A DNA stretch of 64,000 bases, taken from assembly GCA_017417055.1 (NCBI GenBank), contig JAFPZX010000200.1, forward strand, positions 1 to 64,000. The letters are read 5' to 3'. Made by a program: the position numbers and the translations under genes. Every line of letters begins with the position of its first letter. Within the stretch, counting starts at the first letter, position 1. Positions 33,417 to 52,656 of this stretch are shown here, one piece after another. The notes under the pieces were generated by a model, which searched no databases, was not told the origin of the DNA, and saw only the letters and a program-made list of their open reading frames with translations. The DNA comes from Anaerolineaceae bacterium. Lineage in GTDB: Bacteria; Chloroflexota; Anaerolineae; Anaerolineales; Anaerolineaceae.

Positions 33417-34166
33417 TTAATTCGGATTCACGCTGAACTGATAAAGTGTTTTGGATCCGGCTATGATTGCGAAAGACATCGTTTCGCTGTACATCGGCGG
33501 CCAAATGTTGACAGTAAAGCTCAGCTGTCCGCCCCGGTTGACAGAGTAGGGAAGATCCCACAGTGTCCTTTCCGGTTTGGTGAGCAGATGACATCCGGAT
33601 GTGCATTTGATGTCGATGTTCTTTTTGTCCCAATATTCATTTGTGGTGTTGGTGATTGTCCAGGTAAGGTTGATGGATCCGTTATAACACCACTGCTTGT
33701 TGACCTGTACATTGGAATAGCCATTTCCAGGATAATACGGTTGGTACGGTTCATAAGGCTGGTTGGGATATTGGTTTTGATACGGATATGGACTCTGATA
33801 AGGATTCTGATATGGATCGTCTTCGTTGATCGGATAAAAATACAGACCGGACCAGGGATCATAAATCGGACCTTGATTGGGGTAAGGTTTATATTCGGGT
33901 TGCTGTGGTTCCGGATAGACTGGGTAGGACGGTCTCGGCTGCGGCTGTTGGGGTTCCGGATAGACCGGGTAGGACGGTCTCGGCTGGGACTGTTGGGGCT
34001 GCGTATTCTGCTGCGGGATCTGACCGATCGGATACAGCTGAGGGATCGGGTAGGTCTGCTGCGGCTGAGTGTACCAGTAAGGTGTGTTCCCGTCGGCGTG
34101 AACCGCGGCGGTGATTGTGAAAAGACTGATCAGGATAAAGAATAAAAAGATATTTCTGGTTTTCAT
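33417..34166 (-). CDS. secreted Pro/Gln/Tyr-repeat protein with NBR1-like Ig domain
   Basis: 249 residues: a signal peptide (FLFFILISLFTITAAVHADG), then a Pro/Gln/Tyr-rich region (about 30-150) with a 15-residue tandem repeat (PRPSYPVYPEPQQPQ, two near-identical copies in 45-bp DNA repeats at 33907-33996) and PYQNPYQSPYPYQNQYPNQP. The last 95 residues (NGSINLTWTITNTTNEYW, then LPYSVNRGGQLSFTVNI) resemble the NBR1-type Ig domain found on exported proteins. It is probably a cell-surface protein with a flexible stalk. Function unknown. Confidence 0.7.
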   Translation of the reverse strand: MKTRNIFLFFILISLFTITAAVHADGNTPYWYTQPQQTYPIPQLYPIGQIPQQNTQPQQSQPRPSYPVYPEPQQPQPRPSYPVYPEPQQPEYKPYPNQGPIYDPWSGLYFYPINEDDPYQNPYQSPYPYQNQYPNQPYEPYQPYYPGNGYSNVQVNKQWCYNGSINLTWTITNTTNEYWDKKNIDIKCTSGCHLLTKPERTLWDLPYSVNRGGQLSFTVNIWPPMYSETMSFAIIAGSKTLYQFSVNPN

Positions 34167-34326: not shown

Positions 34327-34902
34327 TCAGCAGAGTTGAATATTCAGGTAGACATCATCAAGTTCATCCTGTTCAATCCCAAGATATCGTTTGGTGACCT
34401 CGACGGAGGAGTGATTAAAGATTACCACCAATAGTGTCAGCGGTGTATGCATATATTTCCAGGCATGGTATCCGAATGTTTTCCGCAGGGAATGGCAGGC
34501 GATTTTTCCCTTTACATCAATTTTTTTCGCGGCATTGGAAATGATGCGCCACGCCTGTACGCGGGAGATGGCTTTTTCTTCTTTTCTGCCATTGCTGAAG
34601 ATGAATTTCCCTTTCCGATGAGGAAAATATTTCTTCAGCGCTTCCAGAATGCGTTTGTTGAGTGCAATTCTCTTCGATTTTCCGGTTTTTCTTTCGGTCA
34701 GATCAATGTGTTTGAGAAATTGTTTTTTCTCGAAGTCATAAACGTCTGCCCACTTAAGGGAAAGCAGGTCGCTGATTCGCAGTGCTGTGTACGCACCGAA
34801 TATGACAAGCACATAGTTCCGCATCTGTTTTTTATTCAAAAAATAGTCGGTCAGCGCATATAATTGTTTTTTGTCGCGAATGGGGTCAGTTGTATTACAC
34901 AT
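34327..34902 (-). CDS. minimal tyrosine recombinase, candidate DNA invertase
   Basis: 191 residues consisting almost only of the catalytic domain. Arg in AYTALRISDLL, Lys in RKTGKSKRI, HxxR in HSLRKTFGYH, His in NHSSVEV and the nucleophile Tyr in KRYLGIE are all present, so it should be active. The N-terminal core-binding domain of XerC/D-type integrases is missing. It is transcribed away from the inverted-repeat segment at 34993-35296, which begins about 90 bp upstream of its start. AAGGAAGG lies 6 nt upstream of the ATG. The layout suggests that it flips that segment. Confidence 0.88.
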   Translation of the reverse strand: MCNTTDPIRDKKQLYALTDYFLNKKQMRNYVLVIFGAYTALRISDLLSLKWADVYDFEKKQFLKHIDLTERKTGKSKRIALNKRILEALKKYFPHRKGKFIFSNGRKEEKAISRVQAWRIISNAAKKIDVKGKIACHSLRKTFGYHAWKYMHTPLTLLVVIFNHSSVEVTKRYLGIEQDELDDVYLNIQLC

Positions 34903-34992
34903 GATATACCTTCCTTAATTTAGATATATATTTATATATAGAAGATTATTATGCGTGTAATTGTCTTAAACTCAATGGAAATGTTTTGCATG

Positions 34993-35018
34993 TAACTAAT
35001 TTGAAATCCTGTTACTTT
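34993..35018. repeat. left inverted repeat of the candidate invertible segment
   Basis: A 26-bp sequence starting TAACTAATTTGAAATCC and ending TGTTACTTT. It matches the reverse complement of 35271-35296 at 25 of 26 positions, and the match stops sharply at both ends. Confidence 0.92.
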
Positions 35019-35248
35019 TTTGTAGGAATATATTTGGAATATATATTGATAAAAGAATAAACTTGTAAGTATTCACCTGAAAGATTATGCGTTAAGAAAC
35101 AGATGTTTTGTCCGGACTATCCCCGGCAAACGTTCCTATACTCATTGCTTATTTCTTATTGCTGAATTGATTGATTCTTGATTCATATTTTTGTGAAAAG
35201 ATTTTTGTTATTTTCGCAGATTGATTTGTTTTTTGAATACTAAAGTTG

Positions 35249-35257
35249 TGGTATGAT
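35249..35257 (+). promoter_or_regulatory. extended -10 promoter inside the invertible segment
   Basis: TGGTATGAT, i.e. an extended TGn plus a TATGAT -10, with a T-rich stretch about 17 bp upstream and no good -35. The predicted start near 35264 lies just before the right inverted repeat, so transcripts would run through the repeat into the glycan genes. Confidence 0.55.
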
Positions 35258-35270
35258 TTGTAAATAGCGG

Positions 35271-35296
35271 AAAGTAACAGGATTTCAATTTAGTTA
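35271..35296. repeat. right inverted repeat of the candidate invertible segment
   Basis: Begins AAAGTAACAGGATTTC and ends TTTAGTTA, the reverse complement of the left repeat with a single mismatch. Confidence 0.92.
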
Positions 35297-35508
35297 TATT
35301 ATGAGTATGGATCACTTTGAGATACGGATATTCGTTTATTTTTAAAGGTTGTGTAACAATCCGTGAACCATAACCGTGAAATCCGATGCGATGCGCACCA
35401 TGAAACCGAACGCGGACTGCTTTTGAAACTACTCTATTGCACATGCTGAAGGTTGAGATAAGAAGCGAGACTCTCACACTCGAATTCCGGATGAAAGAGG
35501 ATATTCTG

Positions 35509-35685
35509 ATGTGGAAAGTTCGTAAAAGCAAGCGGAATGAAAGCTCCGTGGATGGCATCGCCTTGTCTGCTGAAGCCACAGAGACCTTAGTTATTTTTGA
35601 AAAACTGAAAGTTTTCAGCCCAAAAACATTGAATCATATACCGAAATCTTTTAACCTAATCGAAAGCAATAAAAGAAAAAAATGA
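35509..35685 (+). CDS. possible small leader protein of the glycan operon
   Basis: A 58-codon frame starting MWKVRKSKRNESS and ending ESNKRKK. GAGG lies 7 nt upstream of this ATG, and the stop overlaps the next start (ATGA). The following large gene has no Shine-Dalgarno of its own, so coupling through this frame would make sense. No family is recognised and the composition is basic, so it could also be a chance frame. The 212 nt between the right inverted repeat and this start show nothing else. Confidence 0.35.
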   Translation: MWKVRKSKRNESSVDGIALSAEATETLVIFEKLKVFSPKTLNHIPKSFNLIESNKRKK

Positions 35686-36845
35686 AAGATGAAATATATT
35701 ATGGGCGTATAAAATATCTGAGCTTTGTTCTATTAGATTTTTTATTACTCTTAACTTCCAATTATCTTGCTTTTCAGGTTTATATCTTTCAATATAAACC
35801 TGAAAATGAATATACGCTAAATAAGCATATTTTTGTTGTAATTATTATGGCCGTGATTGATTTTTTCATTACGGCTGTGTTCAATACACTTGAGAGAGTG
35901 TTGAGACGAAGGAAAAAAAAGGAATTATACGAGGGAATAAAACATGTCGGATACAGTTATATTACACTGGCTGTAATTCTGTTTTTATTCAGGAAAAGTA
36001 CGGATTATTCCAGGCTAACGATAACTCTGGCTTACCTTATCTATTTCGTTCTTTTTATTGGCGTACATATAATCTGGAAGTATATATTGAAAAAATTCAT
36101 ACAAAAGCCTGCACGTAAGACAGTACTTTTGATGACAATGGATGGCTTCCTTAATGAGGGTATTCAAAGATTGCAGGAACAGGATTTTGATGTTCGTTAT
36201 ATTTATCTGCTGAAAAATAGCAAAGCAGATATTGTTGAAGGAATCCCGGTCATCAAAAAATGGGAAAGAGCAGCTTCTGCGATTTGTTGGGACCTGATTG
36301 ATCGTGTATATATCTATGGCCTTGATCATAAAATGGTTCCTCAGTATATGATCAACGCCTGTAGGGAAATGGGATTGAAATTTAATTTGGTTGATTTCAC
36401 GTACCGTATCATCAATATTAAAACAATTGGTCATGATGATCCGGGCTTCGGGATATTGTCAACACTTGAGGAAAAGCGCGATATTCCATTTTCGATCCGC
36501 CGTGTCTATTGGATCACAGAAACTGAAGCCGAATTTCATCGCGGATATCATGCCCATAAATTGAATTGTCAGTTGTTATTTTGTCCGTATGGTGTTATCG
36601 ATCTGATTCTGGATGATGGGACAACAAGAAATACTGTTACTCTGGACAGACCTGATAAAGGTTTGCTGTTGATGCCGGGAATTTGGCGCGAGATGGTATG
36701 GAAAAAAAGCGGATCGGTTTTGTGTGTGCTCGCATCAGGGTATTATGATCCAAAAGAATACATCCGGAATTATGATGAATTTCTTGAATACAGCCGCAAA
36801 TACAGAGCAGGATCTGATAAGGTGAATCTCAATAAATCCTCTTAA
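35682..36845 (+). CDS. fusion: sugar-phosphotransferase N-terminal half plus FdtA-type ketoisomerase
   Basis: 387 residues in two parts. Residues 1-245 have the hydrophobic segments (about four, to residue 135) and the nucleotide-binding-like domain ([37 protein letters not shown]) that form the front half of polyprenyl-phosphate hexose-1-phosphate transferases. The catalytic half is absent. Residues 255-375 are a cupin of the FdtA/QdtA (WxcM-like) family: [53 protein letters not shown]. Such enzymes convert dTDP-4-keto-6-deoxyglucose to a 3-keto isomer. The missing catalytic half is a separate gene two positions downstream. No Shine-Dalgarno; the start overlaps a small upstream frame. Confidence 0.85.
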
Positions 36846-36855
36846 GTATAAAAGA

Positions 36856-37956
36856 ATGAATATTCCTTTTGTTTCTTTTCGCTCGATGGAACGTGAACTT
36901 GATGCAGAATTACGCGGTGCTTTTGACCGAGTTTTTGCTCGTTCCTGGTATATAAAGGGAGAAGAGAATAAATCCTTTGAAGAAGCCTTTGCCGCTTATC
37001 ATGGCGTAGAACACTGTGTTGGTGTCGGCAACGGACTTGATGCGCTGATGCTCGCTCTCAAATCCCTCGGTATCGGTGAAGGAGATGAAGTGATCGTTCC
37101 TTCCAACACCTATATTGCCACAGCTTTGGCGGTCACCTATGTAGGTGCAAAACCGGTGTTTGTTGAACCGAATATCCGCACCTTCAATATTGATCCTTCC
37201 CGGATCGAGGCGGCTGTTACGGAGAAAACGAAAGCAATCATACCGGTTCATCTTTATGGTCAGCCATGTGATATGGATCCGATCATGGAAATCGCCAGAA
37301 AGAGGGAATTGCGTGTAGTAGAAGACTGCGCTCAGGCGCATGGCGCCCGCTATAAGGGACAGCTTGTCGGAACCTTCGGTGATGCAGCGGGGTTTTCCTT
37401 CTATCCGGGGAAGAATCTCGGTGCGCTGGGCGATGCGGGTGCGGTGCTGACCAACGATAAAGAATTGGCGAAAAAGATCCGTGCCCTGGGTAATTATGGG
37501 TCGGATTACAAGTATCATCATATCTATCAGGGGAACAACTCCCGCCTGGATGAAATACAGGCGGCTTTCCTTTCTGCAAAACTCCCACATTTGGACCGCA
37601 TGAACGCGGAACGCCGCCGCATCGCGAAGCGTTATCTTGCGGAGATTCAACACTTGGATGTTATTCTGCCGACAGTCCCGGATTACGCAGAACCGGTCTG
37701 GCACATCTTCGCGGTGCGCTGTTCAAGTCGGGATGCGTTGGAAAAGCACATGAATGATCACGGCATTATGACCAACAAGCACTATCCCATCCCAATGCAC
37801 CTGCAGGAATGTTACCGTGACCTGGCCTTCCAGAAGGGTGATTTCCCCATCGCTGAGGAAATCAGCCAAACCGAACTATCCCTTCCTATGTTCTATGGTA
37901 TGACAGAGGAAGAGATTCAATTTGTTATAGATTCGATAAATGGATTAGTCAAATAA
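36856..37956 (+). CDS. FdtB/DegT-type sugar 3-aminotransferase
   Basis: 366 residues, a PLP-dependent aminotransferase of the DegT/DnrJ/EryC1/StrS family. The Schiff-base lysine is in [32 protein letters not shown] and NTYIATALA are the cofactor-binding parts and YGSDYKYHH is typical. Next to an FdtA-type isomerase it most likely aminates the 3-keto sugar to a dTDP-3-amino-3,6-dideoxyhexose such as Fuc3N or Qui3N. No N-acetyltransferase is seen nearby. Its stop overlaps the next start by one base (TAATG). Confidence 0.92.
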
Positions 37957-38759
37957 TGGATAAATCTGTCGGTAACGATAATCTGATTTCGACAGAAGAA
38001 GGAAAAATTGCAGAGCTTCTGAAAAAAAGAAATTTGCAAAAGGTAAATGAGAATTCCCAAAAAGTTCATCCAAGATGTACTTTTTACACAAAATATGGGA
38101 AACGGTTTTTGGATTTATTGATTTCAATTCCTGTTTTTATAATTCTGCTGCCAATAAATTTTATTTTGGGAATTTGTACATTTTTAGATGTCGGACGGCC
38201 GATTTTATTCAAACAAACCCGGGTAGGGAAAAACGGTCAACATTTTATGATGGTCAAATTCCGCAACATGAATAACAAAACCGATTCGGAAGGAAAACTT
38301 CTTCCGCCTTCGGAGCGTACAACAAAATTTGGAAAAATCATGAGAAAGTATTCCTTTGATGAGCTGCTGAATTTTTGGAGCGTGCTGAAAGGAGATATGT
38401 CTATCATTGGACCGCGCCCGCAGCCGGTTTTCATTTATGATCGTATGTCAGACCGACATAAAATGCGCACAGCTTTGCGTCCGGGTCTGGAATGTCCTCG
38501 GATAATACATAACGAATGGAATAACGGCAGTTTATACCAGTGGTCGTATGAAAATGATATCTGGTATGTAGAAAATGTGAGTTTTCTTCTTGATATGCGA
38601 ATGGTTATTCTTCTGATAAAAATGGTATTTTCTTTACGACATCGCAGTGATCAGGCGGTTGGACGGGGTATCAGTTATTTTGTTGGTTACGATGACGATG
38701 GAATTGCTACAAGCTATAAAAACCAGTTAGCGAGAATGGAAAAAGAAGGTTCTTTATGA
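37956..38759 (+). CDS. catalytic half of a polyprenyl-phosphate sugar phosphotransferase
   Basis: 267 residues: a short N-terminal tail, one membrane helix (FLDLLISIPVFIILLPINFI), then the bacterial sugar transferase domain with KFRNM, SFDELLNFWSVLKGDMS (Asp-Glu dyad) and IIGPRPQP. It should start glycan assembly by moving a sugar-1-phosphate from a nucleotide sugar to undecaprenyl phosphate on the inner membrane face. The usual large N-terminal domain is not here but is fused to the ketoisomerase two genes upstream. It overlaps the next gene by ATGA. Confidence 0.9.
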   Translation: MDKSVGNDNLISTEEGKIAELLKKRNLQKVNENSQKVHPRCTFYTKYGKRFLDLLISIPVFIILLPINFILGICTFLDVGRPILFKQTRVGKNGQHFMMVKFRNMNNKTDSEGKLLPPSERTTKFGKIMRKYSFDELLNFWSVLKGDMSIIGPRPQPVFIYDRMSDRHKMRTALRPGLECPRIIHNEWNNGSLYQWSYENDIWYVENVSFLLDMRMVILLIKMVFSLRHRSDQAVGRGISYFVGYDDDGIATSYKNQLARMEKEGSL

Positions 38760-39715
38760 AACATAAAGTTCTTGTAACTGCAATCGGGACTGTAACAGCA
38801 GCTTCTATTGTCAGTGAACTGAAAAAAAACGGAAGGTATTACATTCTCGGAGCGGACATCAATAATCGATATGAAATTGCCACTTCGCTGGATGTGGATG
38901 AATATTACAAGTTTCCGCTTGCTGTCAATGATGAATATCTGCCATTTGTAATTGATTTTTGCCGGGATCATCAGGTGGAATATTATTTTGCCGTTATCGA
39001 TAAAGAGGTTGTAAAGCTTGCGGAGAACAGAGAAAAATTTTCGGAAATCGGTACAAAGCTTTGTGTCGTAAACCGGGAGTTCGCAGAAATCTGCCATTAC
39101 AAAGATGTTTTCAACAGTTGGATTTCTGAAAACATACCTTTCATAGGAATTAAATCATATAAGAATTACACAGATGCTGAACGAGCGTCTTTTCCGTTAT
39201 TCATCAAACCGGTGGAAGGCGTCGGAAGTGCGGGATGTGTAAAAATCAATAATTCAGCGGAATTGAAGTCATTGGTTTATCCGGATGATTTTGGAAAAAA
39301 GATACTGGTTCAGGAATTTATCACCGGTCAAAACATCACAGTGGATTGTGTCAGAAACCGCAAAACCGGTCAAAAAAATCAAATTCAGCGCCGTGAGCTG
39401 CTTCGTAATTCGCATGGCTGCGGAATTGCGGTTGAAATTATTCACGATGATAAGCTTTCAGAAATCTGCGATGAAATAATGGAAAAGCTTGATCTGAACG
39501 GTGTCTGCAATATGGAATTTTTTGAGACAGATTCCGGATACAAAATCATGGAGATTAATCCGCGGTTTTCTGCCGGGACGACTTATTCCTGCATGGCCGG
39601 CGTCAATACGGTACAAGCTGCTATCGATATCGCTGATGGCCGTGAATGTACTTTCGGTGAGATCGCTGTAGGAGCGCACTTCGCGGAACGCTATGAAGCT
39701 TATCGTATGGACTAA
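38756..39715 (+). CDS. ATP-grasp protein 1
   Basis: 319 residues, an ATP-grasp enzyme related to the carbamoyl-phosphate-synthase large-subunit domain. Features: VTAIGTVTAASIVSEL at the start, FPLFIKPVEGVGSAGC (ATP-binding lysine loop), ILVQEFITGQNITVD, and KIMEINPRFSAGTTY (metal-binding Glu/Asn). Such proteins form C-N or C-S bonds through acyl-phosphates. In a glycan operon it may attach an amino acid or other acyl group to an amino sugar, but the substrate is unknown. Translationally coupled to the phosphotransferase gene. Confidence 0.8.
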   Translation: MKHKVLVTAIGTVTAASIVSELKKNGRYYILGADINNRYEIATSLDVDEYYKFPLAVNDEYLPFVIDFCRDHQVEYYFAVIDKEVVKLAENREKFSEIGTKLCVVNREFAEICHYKDVFNSWISENIPFIGIKSYKNYTDAERASFPLFIKPVEGVGSAGCVKINNSAELKSLVYPDDFGKKILVQEFITGQNITVDCVRNRKTGQKNQIQRRELLRNSHGCGIAVEIIHDDKLSEICDEIMEKLDLNGVCNMEFFETDSGYKIMEINPRFSAGTTYSCMAGVNTVQAAIDIADGRECTFGEIAVGAHFAERYEAYRMD

Positions 39716-39724
39716 TACAGAAAA

Positions 39725-41020
39725 ATGCTGATCAGAGGACTGAAGGGAAAAAAGATATTACTTGTCGGTGGGCTGAACAATACCGTCGATTTGATTGATC
39801 TGGCTCACCGCAACGGCGTAACAGTTGGTGTGGCTGATTATAACAAGGGGACACTTGCGAAAAGTCTTGCGGACTACGCTCACGATGTAAGCGCCTATGA
39901 TGAAGATGACATGGCAGAACTGTGCCTTTCAGAGCATTATGACGGCGTGATCACCGCATTCAATGAACGTCTCGGACCAATTGTCCGTAAATTAGCGGAT
40001 CGTTTGGGTATGTATGCGCCTTTTACGGTGGAGCAGCTCCAAATGAGCACGAACAAGAAGTATTTCAAGCATACCTGTCAGAAATACGGTGTACCGGTCC
40101 CGAAAGAATACATCATTCAATCAATTGAAGATATCTTTAAGCAGGATATTGCTTATCCGGTTATTATCAAACCGGTTGACGCGGCAAGCGCGGTCGGTGT
40201 TATTCCCTGTCGCGATTCAAAGGAATTGGAAGCCGGATATGAAATTGCAATGTCAAAATCGAAAGTCGGTGACGTGATCGTTGAGCAGTATCTGCCTTAT
40301 GATGAGATCAACCTGACTTATATCGCCCAGGATGGTGACATTCAGCTGGCGGCGATCCATGACCGCTATTTCAACACCGAACAAAAAAGCGCGTCAAAAG
40401 CGCCTGATCTTTATATCTATCCCAGCCGCTATACGGATCTGATCCTTGAGAAATATAACGACAAGATCATAGCCATGCTGCAGGGGATTGGAATCAAAAA
40501 CGGTTCGCTTTTCATTCAGGCAATCGTGAAGGGTGAGGAGCTGTACTGTTATGAGGCCGGTATGCGGCTGAATGGCTGTAAGACGTACCAGATCCTCGAA
40601 GTGGAAAATGGCTACAACACCTTTGAACATCTGATGGAACTGGCGCTGACCGGTTCCATGGGAGAAAAGGTGACCTTTGACCCACATTTCAAACACTGGT
40701 ACGCCACGCTGAATGTTCTCGGCAAACCGGGTGCCACGATCGCGGAAGTCCGCGGGGAAAAGGCTTTGAATTCCTACCCCTGGATGGTTCACATTGCCCG
40801 CCGGGATGGGGTAGGTCACACCATCCCCGCTGATTCTGCCGGTACCCTGGTGCAGGATACCACCCGCATCCATATTGCCGCTGATACAAAAGAACAACTT
40901 ATGGAACGCATCGACCGCACTAATGAGCTCTTTCAGCTTCTGGATGCAGATGGGAACAGCATTATTCTCCCGCCCCATGACACAAAAGAGGTTCTTGCGG
41001 GGTTGAATTACGAATTGTAA
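39725..41020 (+). CDS. ATP-grasp protein 2
   Basis: 431 residues, an ATP-grasp ligase of a different subfamily: Rossmann-like start (KKILLVGGLNNTVDLIDLA), ATP loop YPVIIKPVDAASAVGV, VIVEQYLPYDEINLTYI and YEAGMRLNGCKTYQIL, with a C-terminal domain of about 120 residues as in PurK/PurT-like enzymes. It follows ATP-grasp 1 by 9 nt. The pair may act in sequence or as partners on the polymer or its precursor. Substrate unknown. Confidence 0.8.
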   Translation: MLIRGLKGKKILLVGGLNNTVDLIDLAHRNGVTVGVADYNKGTLAKSLADYAHDVSAYDEDDMAELCLSEHYDGVITAFNERLGPIVRKLADRLGMYAPFTVEQLQMSTNKKYFKHTCQKYGVPVPKEYIIQSIEDIFKQDIAYPVIIKPVDAASAVGVIPCRDSKELEAGYEIAMSKSKVGDVIVEQYLPYDEINLTYIAQDGDIQLAAIHDRYFNTEQKSASKAPDLYIYPSRYTDLILEKYNDKIIAMLQGIGIKNGSLFIQAIVKGEELYCYEAGMRLNGCKTYQILEVENGYNTFEHLMELALTGSMGEKVTFDPHFKHWYATLNVLGKPGATIAEVRGEKALNSYPWMVHIARRDGVGHTIPADSAGTLVQDTTRIHIAADTKEQLMERIDRTNELFQLLDADGNSIILPPHDTKEVLAGLNYEL

Positions 41021-41029
41021 AGAGTTTCA

Positions 41030-41920
41030 ATGAATATTTTGATTACCGGTTCGGATGGATTTCTTGGTTCAAAGATAACCCTCGCAATTCAAGAGAATAC
41101 TTCCTGGAATGTACTTGGCCTGACAAGGTCAAAGGATCTTGTGCAAAGTATGCAGAATCAAGATACAGGTATTGATCTTAGCCGCGTTCAGTATCTAACC
41201 AATGAAGAATTCTTACATTCACGTCAAGTTGATTGGGATTTATACGGGGCGGTTCATTTGGCCTTTTCTCGCCGTATGCAGCCGGCAGCAGATATTGCTT
41301 CCTCTATTAATTTTGCTGCTGCTGTTTTCCATAAGCTTGCGGATCTTCATACTGACCGTGTGATCAATATGTCTTCTCAGGGAATATATGGAAATACACC
41401 GGAAATCAGAACAGAAGAAACGCTGCCGGCTCCGGAAACACATTATTCGATGGCAAAGTATGCCTCAGAAATTTTATTCAATGATATTCTGCGGGATTGT
41501 CCGCATCACACAAATTTACGCCTTGATCCTGTTGCTCAAAGTCAAAATGTATTAAAAGGATTGATAAAATCTGCGAAAGAAGGTGTTATCAACCTGAAGG
41601 GTGGAAAACAGGTTTTTTCTTTTATTGATGCGGATGATGTGCCTTCTGCTGTTATTTCAATGCTTAAATCAAAAGGTGATTGGGATCTTGTTTACAATGT
41701 CGGTTGGAACAGAAAACGATATACTTTGATTGAATTAGCAAATCTCATCGCAGATGAAACTGAAAATGTGGGGTATCAACGACCGGTAATCAATATCGAA
41801 AATGCAGAATTTTTTTTATGGTCAGGACTTGATTCTACAAAGTTCCAGAAAAAAACAGGATGGACACCGGTTACACAATTGTTTGATACGGTTAAAAAAA
41901 TGTTATTAGATTGTGGATGA
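41030..41920 (+). CDS. NAD-dependent epimerase/dehydratase (SDR)
   Basis: 296 residues, extended SDR. NILITGSDGFLGSKI is the NAD-binding start, NMSSQGIYG the Ser region and HYSMAKYASE the YxxxK active site. It probably modifies a nucleotide sugar; the exact reaction is not readable. It lies 9 nt behind ATP-grasp 2. Base composition becomes clearly more AT-rich from here onward. Confidence 0.85.
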   Translation: MNILITGSDGFLGSKITLAIQENTSWNVLGLTRSKDLVQSMQNQDTGIDLSRVQYLTNEEFLHSRQVDWDLYGAVHLAFSRRMQPAADIASSINFAAAVFHKLADLHTDRVINMSSQGIYGNTPEIRTEETLPAPETHYSMAKYASEILFNDILRDCPHHTNLRLDPVAQSQNVLKGLIKSAKEGVINLKGGKQVFSFIDADDVPSAVISMLKSKGDWDLVYNVGWNRKRYTLIELANLIADETENVGYQRPVINIENAEFFLWSGLDSTKFQKKTGWTPVTQLFDTVKKMLLDCG

Positions 41921-42038
41921 AAACACCTCCGGTCAATTTGGAATTCAAGCAAGTTCTTTAATTGGAATTAAACCGGAACTAAGCAAAATTATTAAAAAAA
42001 TGGATTTACTTCTTCCATTTTCTTTTGAAAGAAAATAG
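41913..42038 (+). pseudogene. possible gene remnant
   Basis: A 41-codon open stretch in another frame, overlapping the SDR stop: DENTSGQFGIQASSLIGIK, then KKMDLLLPFSFERK and a stop. The amino-acid composition looks protein-like, and it occupies most of a 155-nt gap without a start or RBS of its own. It may be the tail of a deleted gene, but I cannot assign it. Confidence 0.25.
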
Positions 42039-42075
42039 AGCTCGGTAATATGAATCAAATTCAGGTTTTAGTTAA

Positions 42076-43242
42076 ATGGACAGTAGTAAAACAATAAATA
42101 TTTTACATGTGACCATTGGAGATGGAAACTATGGGGGTATCGCGAGTTTTCTGCATACGTTTTACAGTTATGTAGATCATCAACGGTTCCATTTTGATGT
42201 TTTATATTGCGGAGAAAATTCACTGAAAAGCAAAGAATCTGATCCTGTCTGGTCTGATTCAAAGATAGAAGCGTTACACATTTTAAAGAAAAATAATGGG
42301 ATATCAGAATATATAAGGTTACTGCCAAAATTAAAGAAAAAACTGTATGAAAAAGATTATGATATCGTCCATGTTGAAAGCAATAATCCGTTCCTGAATG
42401 CCTGCGTTTCAATTTTAGTAAATAATCAAATAGTTTATATTTCTCATTCACATAATTCTAAGCCGAATATCATTTCTGGATCAAAAGGAAATAGATTATT
42501 CAAAAAGACAATTTCCGGATTAATGAGAGTAATCATAAGAAAAAAGGCGGATGCGTTATTTGCCTGCTCAAAGGAGGCGGGATTATATTTATTTGGAGAA
42601 AAGGGGATAAGATCCAATAAGTTTTGTATTGTTCCCAATGCAATCGAAACCGGTAAATTTAAATTCAATAAAAACATACGACAAAAATTAAGAAATAAAG
42701 AAAACTTCATTATTGGATTCGCAGGACGTTTGGAATTGCAAAAAAATCCGATTTTTGCTGTCAATGTTTTCTATGAAATCTTGAAAAAGAACCAAAATGC
42801 TGTTTTGTGGATCATCGGAGATGGTGACAAAAAGACTGCAATCGAAAAAAGAATAAAAGAATTTAAAATACAAGATAAAGTGTTCATGTTGGGACAGAGA
42901 AATGACGTTTCTGATTTAATGCAGGCAATGGATATTCTTTTATTCCCTTCTTTTTATGAAGGTTTTGGTATTGTTGCTATTGAAGCGCAATGCTCCGGAT
43001 TAAGAGTCGCTGCATCAGACAGTGTTCCCGATTCTGTAAATCTAACCGGTCTTGTTTCATTTTTACCATTATCAGAGTCACCGGAATATTGGGCTGATTA
43101 TATCATCAGCAATCAACTTATGGAAAAAAATCGCGAAGATATGTCAGAAATAATCAAGAACGCAGGCTACGATATCAAAATTGCTGCGGAAAAACTTGAA
43201 GATCAATACATGATGCTGCTGCGGGAAAAGCACAAATCGTAA
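42076..43242 (+). CDS. GT4-family glycosyltransferase
   Basis: 388 residues with the GT-B fold. GDGNYGGIASFLHTFYSYVD is the N-terminal glycine loop. IIGFAGRLELQKNP and LFPSFYEGFGIVAIEAQ (the EX7E motif) mark the GT4 family. A retaining enzyme, probably adding a sugar to the lipid-linked glycan on the cytoplasmic face. Acceptor and donor are unknown. Confidence 0.88.
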   Translation: MDSSKTINILHVTIGDGNYGGIASFLHTFYSYVDHQRFHFDVLYCGENSLKSKESDPVWSDSKIEALHILKKNNGISEYIRLLPKLKKKLYEKDYDIVHVESNNPFLNACVSILVNNQIVYISHSHNSKPNIISGSKGNRLFKKTISGLMRVIIRKKADALFACSKEAGLYLFGEKGIRSNKFCIVPNAIETGKFKFNKNIRQKLRNKENFIIGFAGRLELQKNPIFAVNVFYEILKKNQNAVLWIIGDGDKKTAIEKRIKEFKIQDKVFMLGQRNDVSDLMQAMDILLFPSFYEGFGIVAIEAQCSGLRVAASDSVPDSVNLTGLVSFLPLSESPEYWADYIISNQLMEKNREDMSEIIKNAGYDIKIAAEKLEDQYMMLLREKHKS

Positions 43243-43245
43243 CTG

Positions 43246-43336
43246 TTCAGAACTTGAGTGACGCAACACCAGTACAGTTTTCTTGGGTGGATTTCACCAC
43301 AATAAAAAAGCTGTCCGGTATGTGCTCCGTTCTGAA
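43246..43336. repeat. MITE-like inverted-repeat element, family 2 (copy 1)
   Basis: 91 bp with ends TTCAGAAC and GTTCTGAA and further pairing inside (ACAGTTTT with AAAAGCTGT; GGGTGG with CCACC). The flanks AACTG on the left and TAGATAC on the right resemble those of the second copy at 51061. It lies between the GT4 and the CDP-glycerol-transferase-like gene. Confidence 0.7.
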
Positions 43337-43398
43337 TAGATACATTAATAATATTTTTGATGTTTATTACAATTACGAGAGGGTTTGAGGATAATTCA

Positions 43399-44565
43399 TT
43401 GGAAAAAAAATTTTTTATATTTAAATATTTTTGCATAAAGATCCTGCGGTTGTTTTCAAAATTATCTTTCCTGATTCCTTTACGAAACAATCAGATTTTG
43501 CTGATTGCTTACAACGGGAAGGAGTATTCTGACAGCCCCAGGTATATTTCTGATTACATTCAAAAGCGGGATCAGAAAAACGATTTTATTATGTACTGGG
43601 CTGTAAAAGAACCTGAAAGATATAAAAATATGGAAACAAAAAACCTCAGGTTCATCGAATATAGAAGTTTGCGTTTCGCGTTGGAACATATGCGTTCAAA
43701 ATTTATCATAACAAACATAAGCCCGATGAAAGCAATAGCGGGGCGTAAAGGGCAGGAAATTATCAGTACCTGGCATGGCGGCGGCGCTTATAAAAAGGTA
43801 GGTATGGCGCAATATCATCAATCGAAAGCTCGGCTTTCAATTGTTCGAATGACGATGAAGGATTCAACATTGGTACTAAGCAGCAGTAAGGCGTTTACGG
43901 ACGTTTGTATCCATGACGCGTTTCATTATGAAGGTGCTGTCCTGAATGCAGGGTTACCGAGAAATGATATTCTTTTCAAGTCCGATGTTCATTATGGAAT
44001 CAAAGAAAAAGTAAAAAATTTTTTTTCGCTTCCTTCAGCTATGCATATTGTTTTATATGCTCCTACCTATAGACGATCCGAATTAAATTGGGCTGAAAAA
44101 ATAGATTTTAAAGAATTGCTGAATTCGCTTCAAAATAGATTTTCCGGTGACTGGATCATCCTTTATCGCGCTCATAACATGATGAATCGGGATGACATGG
44201 TTTTGCGGAACAATTCCCTTTTAGATGCAACTGATTACCCGGATATGCAGGAATTACTGATTGCGGCGGATGTTTTGATCACGGATTATTCTTCTTCTAT
44301 CTGGGATTATTCGTTACTGAAAAAACCCGGTTTCCTATTTGTTCCGGACTTAGAATACTACGAGGAAAATAACGGACTTTGTACACCGATCGAAAAGTGG
44401 GGATTTGCGGTTTGCAAAACCAATGAAGAGCTGAAACAAAAAATCCATGATTATGATCAGAAGGAGCAAATCCGGGCTATTAGCGAAAACCATAAATTGT
44501 TTCATAGTTATGAAACCGGAAAAGCCTGTGAGTATGTTTATGATTACATCATAAGCAAAATCTAA
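43399..44565 (+). CDS. CDP-glycerol glycerophosphotransferase-like protein (TagB/TagF family)
   Basis: 388 residues from the TTG at 43399, which has GAGG 8 nt upstream; a longer frame starts at 43360. IISTWHGGGAYKKVGM, VLYAPTYRRSE, LYRAHNMM and VLITDYSSSIWDYSLLKKP are the conserved motifs of the family, which transfers polyol-phosphates from CDP-polyols in teichoic-acid-type polymers. With the TarI-like gene next to it, the polymer probably contains a glycerol- or ribitol-phosphate unit. Confidence 0.85.
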   Translation: MEKKFFIFKYFCIKILRLFSKLSFLIPLRNNQILLIAYNGKEYSDSPRYISDYIQKRDQKNDFIMYWAVKEPERYKNMETKNLRFIEYRSLRFALEHMRSKFIITNISPMKAIAGRKGQEIISTWHGGGAYKKVGMAQYHQSKARLSIVRMTMKDSTLVLSSSKAFTDVCIHDAFHYEGAVLNAGLPRNDILFKSDVHYGIKEKVKNFFSLPSAMHIVLYAPTYRRSELNWAEKIDFKELLNSLQNRFSGDWIILYRAHNMMNRDDMVLRNNSLLDATDYPDMQELLIAADVLITDYSSSIWDYSLLKKPGFLFVPDLEYYEENNGLCTPIEKWGFAVCKTNEELKQKIHDYDQKEQIRAISENHKLFHSYETGKACEYVYDYIISKI

Positions 44566-44620
44566 TCAGTCCATATAGATAATTTAAAAATGTAAGTATT
44601 TAGAATTCAACAACGCCCAT

Positions 44621-44669
44621 GAGGACAGGCACGCTTGTGTCGGCTTTACGACACAAGGTGCCAGTCCCC
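44621..44669. repeat. palindromic interspersed element, family 1 (copy 2)
   Basis: GGACAGGCACGCTTGTGTCG, a short centre, then CGACACAAGGTGCCAGTCC: a hairpin with near-complete arms, in the intergenic space before the cytidylyltransferase gene. It is the inverted counterpart of 27961-28008 (41 of 48 positions). Confidence 0.8.
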
Positions 44670-44692
44670 AAGTGCTCCTTTCTGATAAATAA

Positions 44693-45436
44693 ATGAGAAA
44701 ACAAAAAAATATGAATATCGCCATTATATTCGCAGGTGGGGTTGGACAACGGATGAACGCAAAGGCCTTGCCGAAGCAGTTTCTGGAAGTGCATGGCAAG
44801 CCGGTTATCATTTACACGCTGGAACACTTCGAAAGCCATCCGGATATTGACCACATCATTGTGGTCTGCGTAGAAGGATGGATCGACTACCTGCAATCCC
44901 TGCTGAAAAAATTTTATATCACCAAAGTTTCCGCGATCGTCCCCGGCGGTGATACCGGACAACATTCTATTCGCAATGGAATCTATAAAGCGGCTGAATT
45001 GTATCCGGAAGACAGTATCGTCCTCATCCACGACGGAGTACGTCCGCTCATCACTGCACAGATCATCACTGATTGTATTGACACTGTAAAAAAGCATGGC
45101 AATGCGATCACTGTCTCGCGCGCTATCGAAACGATCGTCATTTCTTCCACGGATCAGCGTGAAGATGTCGCGGATGTTGTTGACCGTTCCCGCTGCATGA
45201 TGGCACGCGCCCCGCAGTGTTTTGTCCTGCGTGATATTTATGCCGCGCACAAAAAGATGGATGAGACCGGGTATACCAATATCATTGATTCAGCCATGCT
45301 GATGCGGGAATTCGGAATGACACTGCATACGGTGGAAGGAGTGCCCGAGAATATAAAAATCACCACACCGGCTGATTTTTATATGTTCCGTGCACTTCTT
45401 GACGCACGGGAAAATTCTCAAATTATCGGTATGTAA
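44693..45436 (+). CDS. IspD/TarI-family cytidylyltransferase
   Basis: 247 residues. AIIFAGGVGQRMN, ALPKQFLEVHGKPVI, PGGDTGQHSIRNG and VLIHDGVRPLI are diagnostic of the IspD/TarI family. In a glycan operon next to a TagF-like enzyme, the TarI role (CTP plus ribitol-5-phosphate or a similar polyol-phosphate giving a CDP-polyol) is more likely than MEP-pathway IspD. A start at 44711 (MNIAIIF) is possible. No clear RBS at either start. Confidence 0.82.
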   Translation: MRKQKNMNIAIIFAGGVGQRMNAKALPKQFLEVHGKPVIIYTLEHFESHPDIDHIIVVCVEGWIDYLQSLLKKFYITKVSAIVPGGDTGQHSIRNGIYKAAELYPEDSIVLIHDGVRPLITAQIITDCIDTVKKHGNAITVSRAIETIVISSTDQREDVADVVDRSRCMMARAPQCFVLRDIYAAHKKMDETGYTNIIDSAMLMREFGMTLHTVEGVPENIKITTPADFYMFRALLDARENSQIIGM

Positions 45437-45476
45437 TAGTAAAAAATTCATAACAGTTATAAGGTTGAAGAGCAAA

Positions 45477-46538
45477 ATGCCAATTAATCAGGTATTGGAA
45501 GAAGATTTAAAACAAACAGTTCACAGCGCTATTCCCTGGGAGAGCTTGAAATCCGGCAGGTTTTTAATTACAGGAGCCACCGGCTTGGTCGGATCGATGC
45601 TGGTAAAAACCCTGCTTTACGGTAATAAAGAAAAAAATCTGGACATAAGTGTTTATGCCGTCGTTCGCAGCCGAGAAAAGGCGAATGATATTTATAAAGA
45701 TTTTCTTCCGGATCCCGCTTTGAGGTTTATTAATGTTGACCTGACAATTGATGATCTGGCAGTCGATGAACCCATTGATTATATCATCCATACAGCCGCT
45801 GTTACCAAATCAAAAACAATGGTTGAAAAACCGGTCGAGACGATTCAAACAGCTGTTTTCGGGACCATCAAAACACTCGAACTGGCAAGGGTAAAAAAGG
45901 TTAAATCGTATGTCTATATCTCCTCCATGGAAATGTATGGCATATTTGCGGATTCAAGCAAGATGACCACGGAAGATGACCTTGGATATATAAATCCATT
46001 GGCAGTAAGAAGCAATTATCCGGAAAGCAAGCGAATGTGTGAAAATATATGTATTTCGTATCTAAGCGAATATCAGGTTCCTGTGAAAATTGCCCGCCTT
46101 GCTCAAACATTCGGAGCAGGGATTCTTCCGGATGAAAACAGAATTTTCGCTCAATTTGCCCGCAGTGTTTTGTCTCAAAAAGATATCGTCCTGCACACAA
46201 AAGGGCTTTCAGAAGGCAATTATTGTTATCTCAGCGAGACCATAGAAGGAATTCTCCTTTTGTTGATAAAAGGGGAAACCGGTGAGGCTTATAATATTGT
46301 CAATGAAAATTGCCACACAACAATAGCGCAAATGGCTGAAATGATTGCCAATGAGATAGCCTGCGGTAAAATCAAGGTGGTCTTCGATATTCCACAAAAA
46401 AATATTTATGGTTATGCATCTGATACGCATATGAAGTTATCTTCGGAACAAATGAAAAACCTGGGATGGCAGCCAAAGATTGATTTGAAAGAATCCTATC
46501 TGCGTTTGATTAAATTTTTAAAAATAGAAGAAAGATAA
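45477..46538 (+). CDS. NAD-dependent epimerase/reductase (SDR)
   Basis: About 353 residues. RFLITGATGLVGSMLVKTLL is the NAD-binding motif; YVYISSMEMYG and NYPESKRMCE supply the Ser and the YxxxK. It lies 40 nt behind the cytidylyltransferase, the position usually taken by a polyol-phosphate reductase in TarIJ pairs, but it is an extended SDR rather than a TarJ-type dehydrogenase. Start chosen at 45477 (MPINQVLEED) behind AGAG; an upstream in-frame extension overlaps the previous gene. Confidence 0.8.
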   Translation: MPINQVLEEDLKQTVHSAIPWESLKSGRFLITGATGLVGSMLVKTLLYGNKEKNLDISVYAVVRSREKANDIYKDFLPDPALRFINVDLTIDDLAVDEPIDYIIHTAAVTKSKTMVEKPVETIQTAVFGTIKTLELARVKKVKSYVYISSMEMYGIFADSSKMTTEDDLGYINPLAVRSNYPESKRMCENICISYLSEYQVPVKIARLAQTFGAGILPDENRIFAQFARSVLSQKDIVLHTKGLSEGNYCYLSETIEGILLLLIKGETGEAYNIVNENCHTTIAQMAEMIANEIACGKIKVVFDIPQKNIYGYASDTHMKLSSEQMKNLGWQPKIDLKESYLRLIKFLKIEER

Positions 46539-46550
46539 TCCGGAATCGAA

Positions 46551-47720
46551 ATGAATATTGGAATTTTCTCATTAGAAACAATCAATAACGCCGGGGATGA
46601 AATCCTTGGTGAAACAACGCAATGGCTTGTGCATCAAAATGCTGATAAAGTAAACGTCAGGAGAATTCAGTTTTCTCCTGATAAACATTTGTTAATTGGA
46701 GAATATCCTGTTCAGCTTTTCTTTTGTAAAATCATCCGTATATTTGCAGATATTTTTCCGCAGGGAAATTTCAAATATAAACTGCTCAATGCCGCCTACA
46801 AAATTAAATTATCACGTTATTATCATGATGAGATGAAACAATTGGATGGCGTCATCACAGCAATCGGAATGTTGAAGTTTACTACACAGAATTTCAGTTA
46901 TCTGTATGATTTGCTGCTAAAGGAAGCCGGTAAGCTCCAGCTTCCGGTCATGATCAGCGCTGCCAGTATCGCAGAGAAAAATGATGAAGATTGGCGTTGT
47001 GAACAATTAAAAGAGGTTGTTAAAAGTCCATCTTTGAAAATCATAACAACAAGAGATGGCCGGCAGGGTCTGGACCGGCTCAAGAAAGAATACCCGGTTC
47101 GTTCAGATGTTTTTTGTGATTATGCCGGAGATCCCGCCTTGTGGATACCAGACGCTTACAATGTAAGAAAAGCTGCAGGGAAACACTGTATCGGAATTAA
47201 TCTCATTCGGAGTGATATTTATTTATCTTATGGCGGCCATACTTCTGAAGATGAGTTGATGGAATTTTATGAAAATTTGATTTCGAATTTGTTACAGAAA
47301 AATGAGCCATTTAAATTATTTTGCAATGGCATAACCTCTGATTACGAGGTAGGAAAGAAATTATTACAAAGGTTGAGCCTTTCGGATGATTATTTATGTC
47401 CAAAACCATAAAATTCGAAACAATTTTTTTCTGAAATTTCCCAATTCGATATTGTTTTTGGTGCACGATTGCATGCATGCCTTACAAGTTATGCTTTGGA
47501 TATACCGGTTGTTGGGTTATTATGGGACGATAAATTACGTTTTTTTTCTGATAATGCCGGTATCAAAAATTATTTTCTGGAAGAAAATCAACTAATTGGC
47601 GAAAAGGCTGCTGAACTGCTCATCAACAGCAGAAAATATGATTATGACCATAACATCAGAGATCATTATAAAAATCGCACAAAAGAAAGTATTGGAAAAT
47701 TTCTCAACGAATATCTGTAA
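46551..47720 (+). pseudogene. polysaccharide pyruvyl transferase interrupted by an in-frame TAA
   Basis: The reading frame codes for a pyruvyl-transferase-family protein of about 390 residues: INNAGDEILGETTQWLV at the start and VFGARLHACLTSYALDIPVV near the end. A single TAA at 47409-47411 cuts it after 286 codons. The frame then continues unbroken for 102 more codons with family-typical sequence, so this is one nonsense change and not a frameshift. The upstream part alone lacks the RLH motif region and should be inactive. A sequencing error is possible. Confidence 0.85.
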
Positions 47721-47821
47721 TTTTACTTCTGGTAAAAATGTATCAGATTAATAAAAAAACGTCAACGGAAGCGAAAGCAGCTGGATTTATATCTGAGCTT
47801 TTTTATCAATGAGGCATATTC

Positions 47822-48856
47822 ATGAACAAGAATCATCCCAGCGTTAGTGTTATTGTTCCGATTTACAGGATCAAACAAGAATATCTTGAACAATGTATTG
47901 AAAGTCTTGTTCTCCAGACTTATCAGGATATCGAAATTATCCTGATAGATGATGGGTCTCCTGATAATTGCGGAAAAATTTGTGATTTATATGCGGAACG
48001 ATATGCCGCGATTCGTGTTATTCATAAAGAAAATGAAGGCGTATCAGTTGCAAGGAATCTTGGCATTGATGTCTCGCAAGGTGAATATATCATGTTTGTA
48101 GATGCTGATGATTGGTTGGAAAGGGACTGCATTGAAACCGTTCTCAAAGAAATTCAGCTCAGAAAAGCAGAAGTATTGTATTTTCAAAGATGTAAAGAGG
48201 GTTTGATTAATCAAAGCTTTCCTCCGACAAAATCGAGATATCTCGATAACGCAGAGATTACTGATTTTCAAATTTGCGCTTTGTCATCAAGACAGAGAGT
48301 AGATTTTGATCCAAAAGCACCTTGGGGTAAGATCATTCGAAGAGACTATTGTATTAAAAATCATATCTCTTTTCCTCCCGGGGTTAAAAAGGCGCAGGAT
48401 GTAATCTTTAATCTGTATCTTCTTGAATATGCGGCGTCATTTTATTGTCTTGATTATGTTGGGTATCATCATCGTCTAAATCCCGGATCGATTAATGTCC
48501 GATACAATCCTGAAATTCCTGATGCAATGGTTCAAGTTCTTAGCGAATGTGATAAATTTATTAACAAATTCCATAGTACAGAACAATTGTTTTTGGAAGG
48601 TATGTGCTTTCGTTCTGTTATTCAATTAGGAACGATAGAGAAACTCTATACCTTACACAGCGAAAGTAATATGACATATGGCGAAATAAAAAAGATTACA
48701 CTCCAATATTGGGACAATGAATTCGTAAGAAAGTATATCAATTATTTTTCTTCTAAATTTTTTGATACATTCAAATATCGTTTTCGTTATTACATCGCAA
48801 AAAACAAACTTTTTCCCGTTTATTATTTTTATCGCATATATCTAAGGAAAAACTGA
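47822..48856 (+). CDS. GT2-family glycosyltransferase
   Basis: 344 residues, GT-A fold. It has VSVIVPIYRIKQEYLEQCIE, DIEIILIDDGSPDNCGKIC, and the metal-binding DXD in YIMFVDADDWLERDC. Inverting sugar transferase of the cluster; donor unknown. The C-terminal half is AT-rich with no membrane helix. It is the last gene of the glycan operon. Confidence 0.9.
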   Translation: MNKNHPSVSVIVPIYRIKQEYLEQCIESLVLQTYQDIEIILIDDGSPDNCGKICDLYAERYAAIRVIHKENEGVSVARNLGIDVSQGEYIMFVDADDWLERDCIETVLKEIQLRKAEVLYFQRCKEGLINQSFPPTKSRYLDNAEITDFQICALSSRQRVDFDPKAPWGKIIRRDYCIKNHISFPPGVKKAQDVIFNLYLLEYAASFYCLDYVGYHHRLNPGSINVRYNPEIPDAMVQVLSECDKFINKFHSTEQLFLEGMCFRSVIQLGTIEKLYTLHSESNMTYGEIKKITLQYWDNEFVRKYINYFSSKFFDTFKYRFRYYIAKNKLFPVYYFYRIYLRKN

Positions 48857-52164: not shown

Positions 52165-52656
52165 ATGGCCAAACTAAGCGAAAGTGCTGTACAGACTATC
52201 ACTGAGATTTGTCATCGTTATGACGACGAAAATACGCCACTGATGATGATCCTGAGTGATATTCAGAACGAATACGGTTACATTCCTTTGGAAGTCCAGG
52301 AAATCGTTTCAAAAGAAACAAACATTTCCGTTGCGGAAATCTATGGTGTTGTGACGTTTTATTCGTTCTTCTCATTGACTCCCAAGGGCAAATATGTCAT
52401 TGGGTGCTGCCTCGGTACTGCGTGTTATGTGAAGGGTGCACAGCAGGTTATCGATAAATTTGAAGAACTCCTCAAAATCAAACCGGGTGAAACATCTGAA
52501 GACGGGCTCTTTACGCTTGATGCGCTTCGCTGCATTGGTGCCTGCGGCATCGCTCCGGCAGTGAGCATTAACGGAACAGTCTATCCCAAGATGAGTGTTG
52601 ATAAGGTCCCCGCTGTTATTGCCGAATATAAGGCGAAGGAAGGAATCCCAGCATGA
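52165..52656 (+). CDS. hydC: NuoE-like subunit of NAD-linked [FeFe] hydrogenase
   Basis: About 163 residues, thioredoxin-like [2Fe-2S] protein. The four cluster cysteines are in CCLGTACYVKGA (first and fourth after GKYVIG) and CIGACGIAP. It is the small electron-transfer subunit of the trimeric NAD(P)-reducing hydrogenases (HydC/HndA). The ATG at 52165 is preferred, with GGAG 10 nt upstream; a GTG three codons earlier is possible. Overlaps the next gene by ATGA. Confidence 0.93.
   Translation: MAKLSESAVQTITEICHRYDDENTPLMMILSDIQNEYGYIPLEVQEIVSKETNISVAEIYGVVTFYSFFSLTPKGKYVIGCCLGTACYVKGAQQVIDKFEELLKIKPGETSEDGLFTLDALRCIGACGIAPAVSINGTVYPKMSVDKVPAVIAEYKAKEGIPA

Follow-up and report, generated by a model that had tools for sequence, protein, structure and literature searches.

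A putative invertible promoter with an adjacent tyrosine recombinase upstream of a surface-glycan operon in a gut Chloroflexota bacterium

We analyzed a stretch of 64,000 nucleotides (hereafter the window) from contig JAFPZX010000200.1 of an Anaerolineaceae assembly (GCA_017417055.1), in which a small recombinase gene, a short interval bounded by inverted repeats and a long run of surface-glycan genes follow one another (Table 1). That the contig belongs to the genus is supported by its NADH dehydrogenase-type gene (52653-54539), which is 94-98% identical in four same-genus genomes. Judged by protein domains, the glycan run encodes a CoA-binding/FdtA protein, a DegT aminotransferase, a sugar transferase, ATP-grasp proteins and epimerases, as well as glycosyltransferases, a CDP-glycerol glycerophosphotransferase and a cytidylyltransferase. 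A leader of 384 bp separates the right-hand recombination site from the first of these genes. A first-pass annotation had proposed that the repeat-bounded interval inverts and thereby turns the glycan operon on or off.

Table 1. Positions in the window of the recombinase gene, the proposed switch and the genes that follow it.
Feature	Position	Strand	Remark
Minimal tyrosine recombinase of 191 aa, consisting of the catalytic domain; proposed invertase	34327..34902	-	PF00589
Candidate recombinase promoter TTGAGT-16-CATAAT, outside the invertible segment	34948..34975	-	consensus scan, weak
Left recombination site GTAACTAAT-TTGAAA-TCCTGTTAC	34992..35015	+	core 35001-35006
Putative invertible segment between the sites (258 bp)	35016..35273	.	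counterpart in L059/L060 found in both orientations
Candidate promoter TTTTTT-17-TATGAT with extended TG, toward the glycan operon	35229..35257	+	weak consensus; placed like its counterparts in related switches
Right recombination site GTAACAGGA-TTTCAA-TTTAGTTAT	35274..35297	+	inverted copy of the left site; core 35283-35288
Conserved operon leader, probably non-coding	35396..35556	+	copies in five other loci
Surface-glycan gene run	35682..48856	+	presumed operon

The recombinase was described at first pass as a minimal tyrosine recombinase with all catalytic residues, starting about 90 bp to the left of the repeat and reading away from it, and each element of this description was confirmed. 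PF00589 covers residues 12-174 (E 6.9e-22), and the protein aligns to the C-terminal part only of the XerA (110-263 of 263) and XerD (122-284 of 290) models. Its start codon lies 89 bp from the left 24-bp site (34992), and the gene reads outward. Seven residues of the catalytic type, R42, K72, K75, H137, R140, H164 and Y173, show no variation across the 29 rows of the alignment. From the alignment to XerA/XerC-like chains we take R42, K72 (or K75), H137, R140, H164 and Y173 to be the catalytic residues, K72 being aligned with the first lysine of the GKGDK stretch of XerA. The Phage_integrase domain thus contains the R, K, H, R, H/W and Y of a tyrosine recombinase, the lysine being either K72 or K75. 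With about 28 bits (28.4 and 28.1) against curated cutoffs of 221-222, the protein falls outside the NCBIfam tyrosine-type DNA invertase models PRK09870 and PRK09871, which presumably cover FimB and FimE. The gene may possess a promoter of its own; the consensus scan that listed the candidate found 3 promoters in the region compared to 4.7 expected in shuffles, and a paralog on contig C174 of the same genome carries TTGACT at the matching place, as judged by eye. Beside the recombinase, the open reading frame 33417-34166, which has no Pfam family, contains two 45-bp direct repeat units that are 89% alike (33901-33990).

The interval upstream of the recombinase is bounded by an inverted repeat of 29 nt (arms 34990-35018 and 35271-35299, 93% complementary, spacing 252 nt), of which the 26-bp repeat with one mismatch reported previously forms the core part. 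Its score of 23 (+1/-2 scoring, arms 40-700 nt apart) is the highest in the window, the runner-up with a score of 20 being situated in a repeat-rich stretch at about 16.7-17.0 kb. A score of 17 was reached by none of eight first-order resamplings of the whole window and, in a smaller test restricted to the 1.2-kb region, by one of three. The window-best score of 23, set against no window resampling at 17, led us to reject a chance repeat. Both repeats are 24-bp sites with the pattern GTAAC-N4-core-N4-GTTAC, where the core of 6 bp (TTGAAA) is identical at the two sites in 6 of 6 positions and the right site has one arm mismatch. The window thus presents inverted sites with an identical crossover core, as in an invertible switch. 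According to the list of open reading frames there is no credible protein-coding gene inside the segment; the sole overlapping frame with 80 aa or more (35208-35579, GTG start, minus strand) crosses the right site, which agrees with the gene-free interior of 252 bp noted at first pass.

A search of the 4.4-Mb assembly for other copies of the repeat, which had been advised earlier, found the exact pattern GTAAC-N14-GTTAC in 2 places, the left site of the window and a site on C174, both of which adjoin copies of the window-type recombinase. With one mismatch allowed, 33 further places were found, the right site of the window among them. In this relaxed form the pattern shows no genomic enrichment (35 places, compared with 166 when it is read backwards), which places the specificity in the exact sites and their pairing.

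To place the window among related systems, we made use of a scan of a species-level genome collection, which yielded 73 loci with related recombinases, mostly from Bacillota and including rumen and gut Chloroflexota contigs such as one of Flexilinea sp. Five remote or very short loci (L121-L125) were omitted from the upstream analyses; the other 68 together with the window and C174, minus four loci with less than 150 bp upstream (L054, L057, L064 and L115), gave 66 upstream regions. The loci L053, L054/L055 and L088/L118 lie on contigs that also appear below as G012, G006 and G005, and are thus not independent of the same-genus comparisons. Arm-type sites occurred 67 times within the first 420 bp upstream of the recombinases and not once at 780-1200 bp (windows set post hoc). 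When sites were paired by their arms alone, pairs were obtained in 30 of the 66 loci, representing 22 distinct pairs with that of the window included. The 6-bp core of the left site was identical to that of the inverted right site in 22 of these 22 pairs, L059 and L060 being counted as two despite representing the two orientations of a single locus, while identity between loci was seen in only 8 of 462 comparisons, and the observed total was reached by none of 20,000 permutations. The 22 pairs contain 18 different cores. Strand exchange by tyrosine recombinases depends on homology and predicts cores that are free but matched; the locus-specific identity of the cores is therefore as expected if strand exchange occurs within the core. 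Judged by sequence, the GTAAC-N4-core-N4-GTTAC arms and the adjacent recombinase appear to define a clade with a site rule of its own, in which the core is free but has to match.

The same pairs bear on the idea that the recombinase serves a mobile element as integrase or resolvase, with the repeats as attachment or resolution sites, in which case there would be no phase variation. More distant relatives are indeed common on plasmids (1834 records, the best among the matches listed having 45% identity) and on phages (161 records, the best among the matches listed having 48%), and several loci of outer clades have a single palindromic site upstream for which a partner was not found. However, there is no cargo gene between the sites of the window, and matched-core inverted pairs are confined to one recombinase clade, where they occur in 30 of the 42 loci with upstream sequence, as opposed to none of the 21 loci placed outside this clade and none of the 3 loci unplaced on the tree. 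Since the flip is, in addition, directly visible in two relatives (L059 and L060, see below), we regard this mobile-element reading as very improbable. The single palindromes of the outer clades have the form GCAAC-N14/15-GTTGC and lie upstream of the recombinases of L102, L104, L105, L107, L109, L111, L114 and L117; no partner site turned up in the stretch searched. Downstream in L104 and L097 there are flagellin-like open reading frames, named by eye.

The first-pass annotation had placed an extended -10 element at 35249, just inside the right repeat and reading into the operon. The position is as described, since the element (TGGTATGAT, 35249-35257) lies 16 bp from the right site, but a strong promoter consensus was not observed: the -35 element at the correct spacing is merely TTTTTT, the candidate is absent from the list of the consensus scan, and its score of 9.5 is below the shuffled-segment 95% point of 10. 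We call this promoter on its position and on the comparison with related switches, not on consensus strength, and on these grounds the segment probably carries a promoter. Of the 33 pairs examined, 8 have a promoter-like element directed away from the recombinase and 20 have one directed toward it, with 5 unclear; expressed in distinct segments, of which there are 23, the element was seen away only in 7, toward only in 10, in both directions in 1, and was unclear in 5. An extended TG is present in 25 of the 28 called elements, and 25 score above the shuffled 95% point. The element of C174 points toward the recombinase, as does, weakly, that of G005:C27.

Inversion can be read directly from the comparison of L059 with L060. 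Their collinear flanks, which are 98% and 100% identical (689 and 957 bp), enclose a stretch of 164 bp that is 96% identical and inverted, the two loci thus differing by an inversion between the sites, and the promoter-like element faces outward from the recombinase in L059 and toward it in L060. L060 is from a Lachnospiraceae genome and L059 from a bin labelled Saccharibacteria; with 98-100% identity to Lachnospiraceae A4 around the switch, the L059 contig is probably misbinned. The loci L059, L068, L070 and L080, on contigs of bins labelled Saccharibacteria, are all switches of the Lachnospiraceae type. The comparison of related genomes that had been recommended for finding flipped copies was consequently positive for L059/L060 and negative for the window segment, of which no flipped copy was found among 14 same-genus genomes; in the other 13 of these genomes its interior has one marginal 57-bp match and otherwise no homolog. 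Both orientations are therefore seen in relatives, in L059/L060 as well as in the promoter directions, and the window locus is known in its assembled orientation only. An enrichment of contig ends near the switch, as expected if both orientations coexist, is only mild: contig ends lie at 300 bp or less from the switch in 7 of 68 loci upstream versus 1 of 68 downstream, and at 1000 bp or less in 12 versus 8.

Matched cores in all distinct pairs, the L059/L060 flip and promoter-like elements in both orientations together lend support to the inversion proposed at the outset, and we consider it very probable that the window contains a site-specific DNA inversion switch in which the adjacent recombinase flips a promoter-bearing segment and sets the glycan operon ON or OFF. 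Sequence comparison establishes the structure of the sites, the identity of the cores, the adjacent recombinase, the inversion in a related switch and the occurrence of promoter-like elements of either orientation among relatives; that the window segment itself flips, that its promoter is active and that the operon responds is what we would predict from these. The recombinase would bind each 24-bp site through its pair of inverted 9-bp arms, and strand exchange within the identical core TTGAAA would then invert the 258-bp segment, which is proposed to bear a single promoter, close to the right end. As assembled, this promoter would read through the conserved leader into the glycan operon (ON), and after inversion it would face the recombinase and leave the operon without this promoter (OFF), presumably with extra expression of the recombinase in the OFF state. 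Cells of one clone would thus differ in making the surface glycan.

The sites and the recombinase could also work as proposed while control is exerted by a terminator or an altered leader RNA, as in Clostridioides difficile cwpV, and not by movement of a promoter. Such control would fit with the window promoter being weak by consensus and with a leader that is conserved and, elsewhere, tied to loaP, and it has the precedent of cwpV, the promoter of which lies outside the inverted region according to the accessible text of that report (PMC2784873). On the other hand, promoter-like elements with an extended -10 are found inside the segment near one site in 25 of the 33 pairs (many of them near-identical copies), they stand at the opposite end in flipped segments, and the scan that searched for promoters found no terminator-like site inside the window segment, the two sites it did find being located in the leader on the minus strand. 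We therefore judge control by a terminator or leader RNA to be quite unlikely compared to inversion of a promoter.

The window genome contains two further traces of the module. On C174 there is a recombinase 94% identical to that of the window, and on C99 a recombinase remnant with a stop. At the DNA level the window and C174 share 88% identity over 692 bp, covering the recombinase and its upstream region, and the similarity breaks off exactly with the final base of the left site, which indicates that the recombinase and the neighbouring site act as one module. The C174 contig terminates 226 bp upstream of the recombinase, probably inside the C174 segment. The C99 copy (L013 1208-2484) is a decayed switch that has one site left, with a damaged arm and the core TTGAAA; by eye, its promoter-like element is directed toward a loaP-led glycan operon, as if fixed ON. 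The sites of the window, C174 and the C99 remnant have this core in common. A close copy of the recombinase was found in 4 of the 14 same-genus genomes, that of the window included. Among 400 Chloroflexota genomes drawn, only the window genome gave a match at E <= 1e-40, the other three carriers evidently being missing from the draw.

Decay of this kind raises the question of whether the switch of the window is itself an old one that became fixed in one orientation in this lineage, with the operon constitutively on. The damaged site and interrupted recombinase of C99 in the same genome would be in line with this, as would the arm mismatch in the right site of the window. Nevertheless, the recombinase frame of the window is intact and its product close to that of C174, the cores match completely, and arm mismatches are frequent among the paired sites of relatives. 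We thus find a fixed switch unlikely and favour one that still inverts.

Between the right site and the glycan genes, the conserved leader has copies at C99, C1, G012:C12, G005:C51 and G006:C55 (coordinates L013:1852-2017, L143:3124-3330, L044:10837-11040, L047:11497-11725 and L147:1330-1565). It stands in front of glycan operons and is followed by loaP in 4 of the 6 loci; in one the contig ends, and the window has no loaP. A loaP as the first gene of the window operon was looked for and not found, the own genome having close copies only at C99 and C1 and a remote match (24%) at C33. The leader holds invariant sequence blocks and a second hairpin that is unlike the UNCG type of Bacillus LoaP, which binds a leader hairpin of that type (PMC12691694, accessible text). 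Only the hand-cut second part of the leader folds into hairpins; for the first part the predicted folds were no better than shuffles in 4 of 4 sequences, and RNAalifold gave 0 of 22 pairs with both sides changed, that is, no covariation support. The leader is possibly a new LoaP response element. Rfam at gathering thresholds found one tRNA only in the window. The open reading frame 35437-35685 is unlikely to be the first gene of the operon, because its reading frame is not kept in 4 of the 6 loci: counted from ATG 35443 or its equivalent, 80 codons are open in the window and 68 in G012, whereas a stop follows after 22 codons in C99 and after 12 in G005, and C1 and G006 lack the ATG. On the minus strand at 35465-35548, opposite to the operon, the leader contains the two terminator-like sites mentioned above, where shuffles gave 0.3.

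Three switches in two same-genus genomes (G012, G005:C51 and G005:C27) lead into loaP, as does the C99 remnant. In G012, loaP comes directly after the segment and is succeeded by a second loaP and glycan-like genes, and in G005:C27 glycan-like genes come after loaP (the glycan genes being named by eye in both cases). The cutoff of the LoaP model was passed by 7 of the 7 proteins submitted, one each from C99, C1 and G006:C55 and two each from G012 and G005:C27; the LoaP-like protein of G005:C51 was matched by phmmer only.

The recombinase tree, which comprises 68 rows and is midpoint-rooted, with one very long outgroup branch and some bins labelled Saccharibacteria, was built without L116, L119 and L120 (less than 150 aa), with L054 replaced by the same gene from L045, and with the window, C174 and one distant relative added. 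Within the switch clade, the seven Chloroflexota rows group together as one clade (99/91 support) inside a larger set of Bacillota rows, and this nesting suggests, as the simplest reading of the tree, that the recombinase reached gut Chloroflexota by horizontal transfer from Bacillota. In ten Bacillota loci, for each of which one early downstream open reading frame was inspected, 4 of these frames have surface-type domains (Big_2; BspA-type LRR with Big_2; a Listeria-Bacteroides repeat; a weak SLH), and the other six comprise one helicase, one weak integrase-like match below cutoff and four frames without a family.

The capsule switches of Bacteroides fragilis, with the Mpi invertase and the UpxY antiterminators, have a short invertible promoter before a surface polysaccharide operon, like the switch proposed for the window. 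In same-genus relatives of the window a NusG-paralog antiterminator comes next, as in B. fragilis. The differences are that the window recombinase is adjacent, that the arms are GTAAC/GTTAC and that the antiterminators of the relatives score best as LoaP and not as UpxY. In the fim system of Escherichia coli the adjacent tyrosine recombinases FimB and FimE, of about 200 aa, flip a promoter-bearing segment that is a few hundred bp long. The window likewise has a promoter-like segment of a few hundred bp and an adjacent recombinase of about that size, but it has one recombinase only, which, as indicated by its scores, is outside the fim-type invertase family. For C. difficile cwpV and RecV, the accessible text describes a tyrosine recombinase, 21-bp inverted repeats, a 195-bp segment and a surface product, with recV not near cwpV and terminator formation as the proposed mechanism (PMC2784873). 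Unlike RecV, the window recombinase adjoins the segment; the promoter of cwpV lies outside the inverted region, and the candidate promoter of the window, weak by consensus, is located inside the segment.

Inverton group 139 with invertase group 35 comprises 33 invertons, 32 of them from class Clostridia and nearly all near a tyrosine-type recombinase, and the coordinates given for Clostridium sp. D5 correspond to 26-bp repeats (PMC11892184, accessible part). We liken the window switch to this group by description and not by repeat motif, and Chloroflexota do not appear in the accessible main text (PMC11892184). Both Bacteroides and Akkermansia have invertible promoters in front of capsule genes, and the Akkermansia cps1 inverton, beside a capsule locus of a gut bacterium outside Bacteroidota, was seen in both orientations (PMC13343947, accessible part). 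Its repeat motif CGGATT..AATCCG differs from GTAAC/GTTAC, and the word recombinase is absent from the main text as accessible, whereas the window has an adjacent recombinase (PMC13343947). LoaP is also involved in capsule inversions of Eggerthella, which are megabase-sized and for which no recombinase gene was found beside the breakpoints according to the accessible text (PMC13174815). Our literature search, limited and confined to open-licence sources, found no description of a switch of this kind in Chloroflexota, in agreement with the first-pass annotation, which knew of none. The window switch would accordingly be of a known kind and, as far as this limited search tells, new for the phylum.

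A more speculative reading, which we hold to be possible but doubtful, is that gut Chloroflexota joined a recombinase-site module of Bacillota to LoaP antitermination and so rebuilt from other parts the capsule logic of Bacteroides, namely an invertible promoter, a NusG paralog and a glycan operon. In such an arrangement the OFF orientation would drive the recombinase, so that cells might leave OFF actively and ON slowly, and loci with the core TTGAAA could cross-recombine. If the inversion switch is true, recombinase-driven phase variation of surface glycans extends to gut Chloroflexota, and the site rule could serve to locate such switches in gut Bacillota and Chloroflexota from raw genomes or reads, in many cases together with the orientation they currently have.
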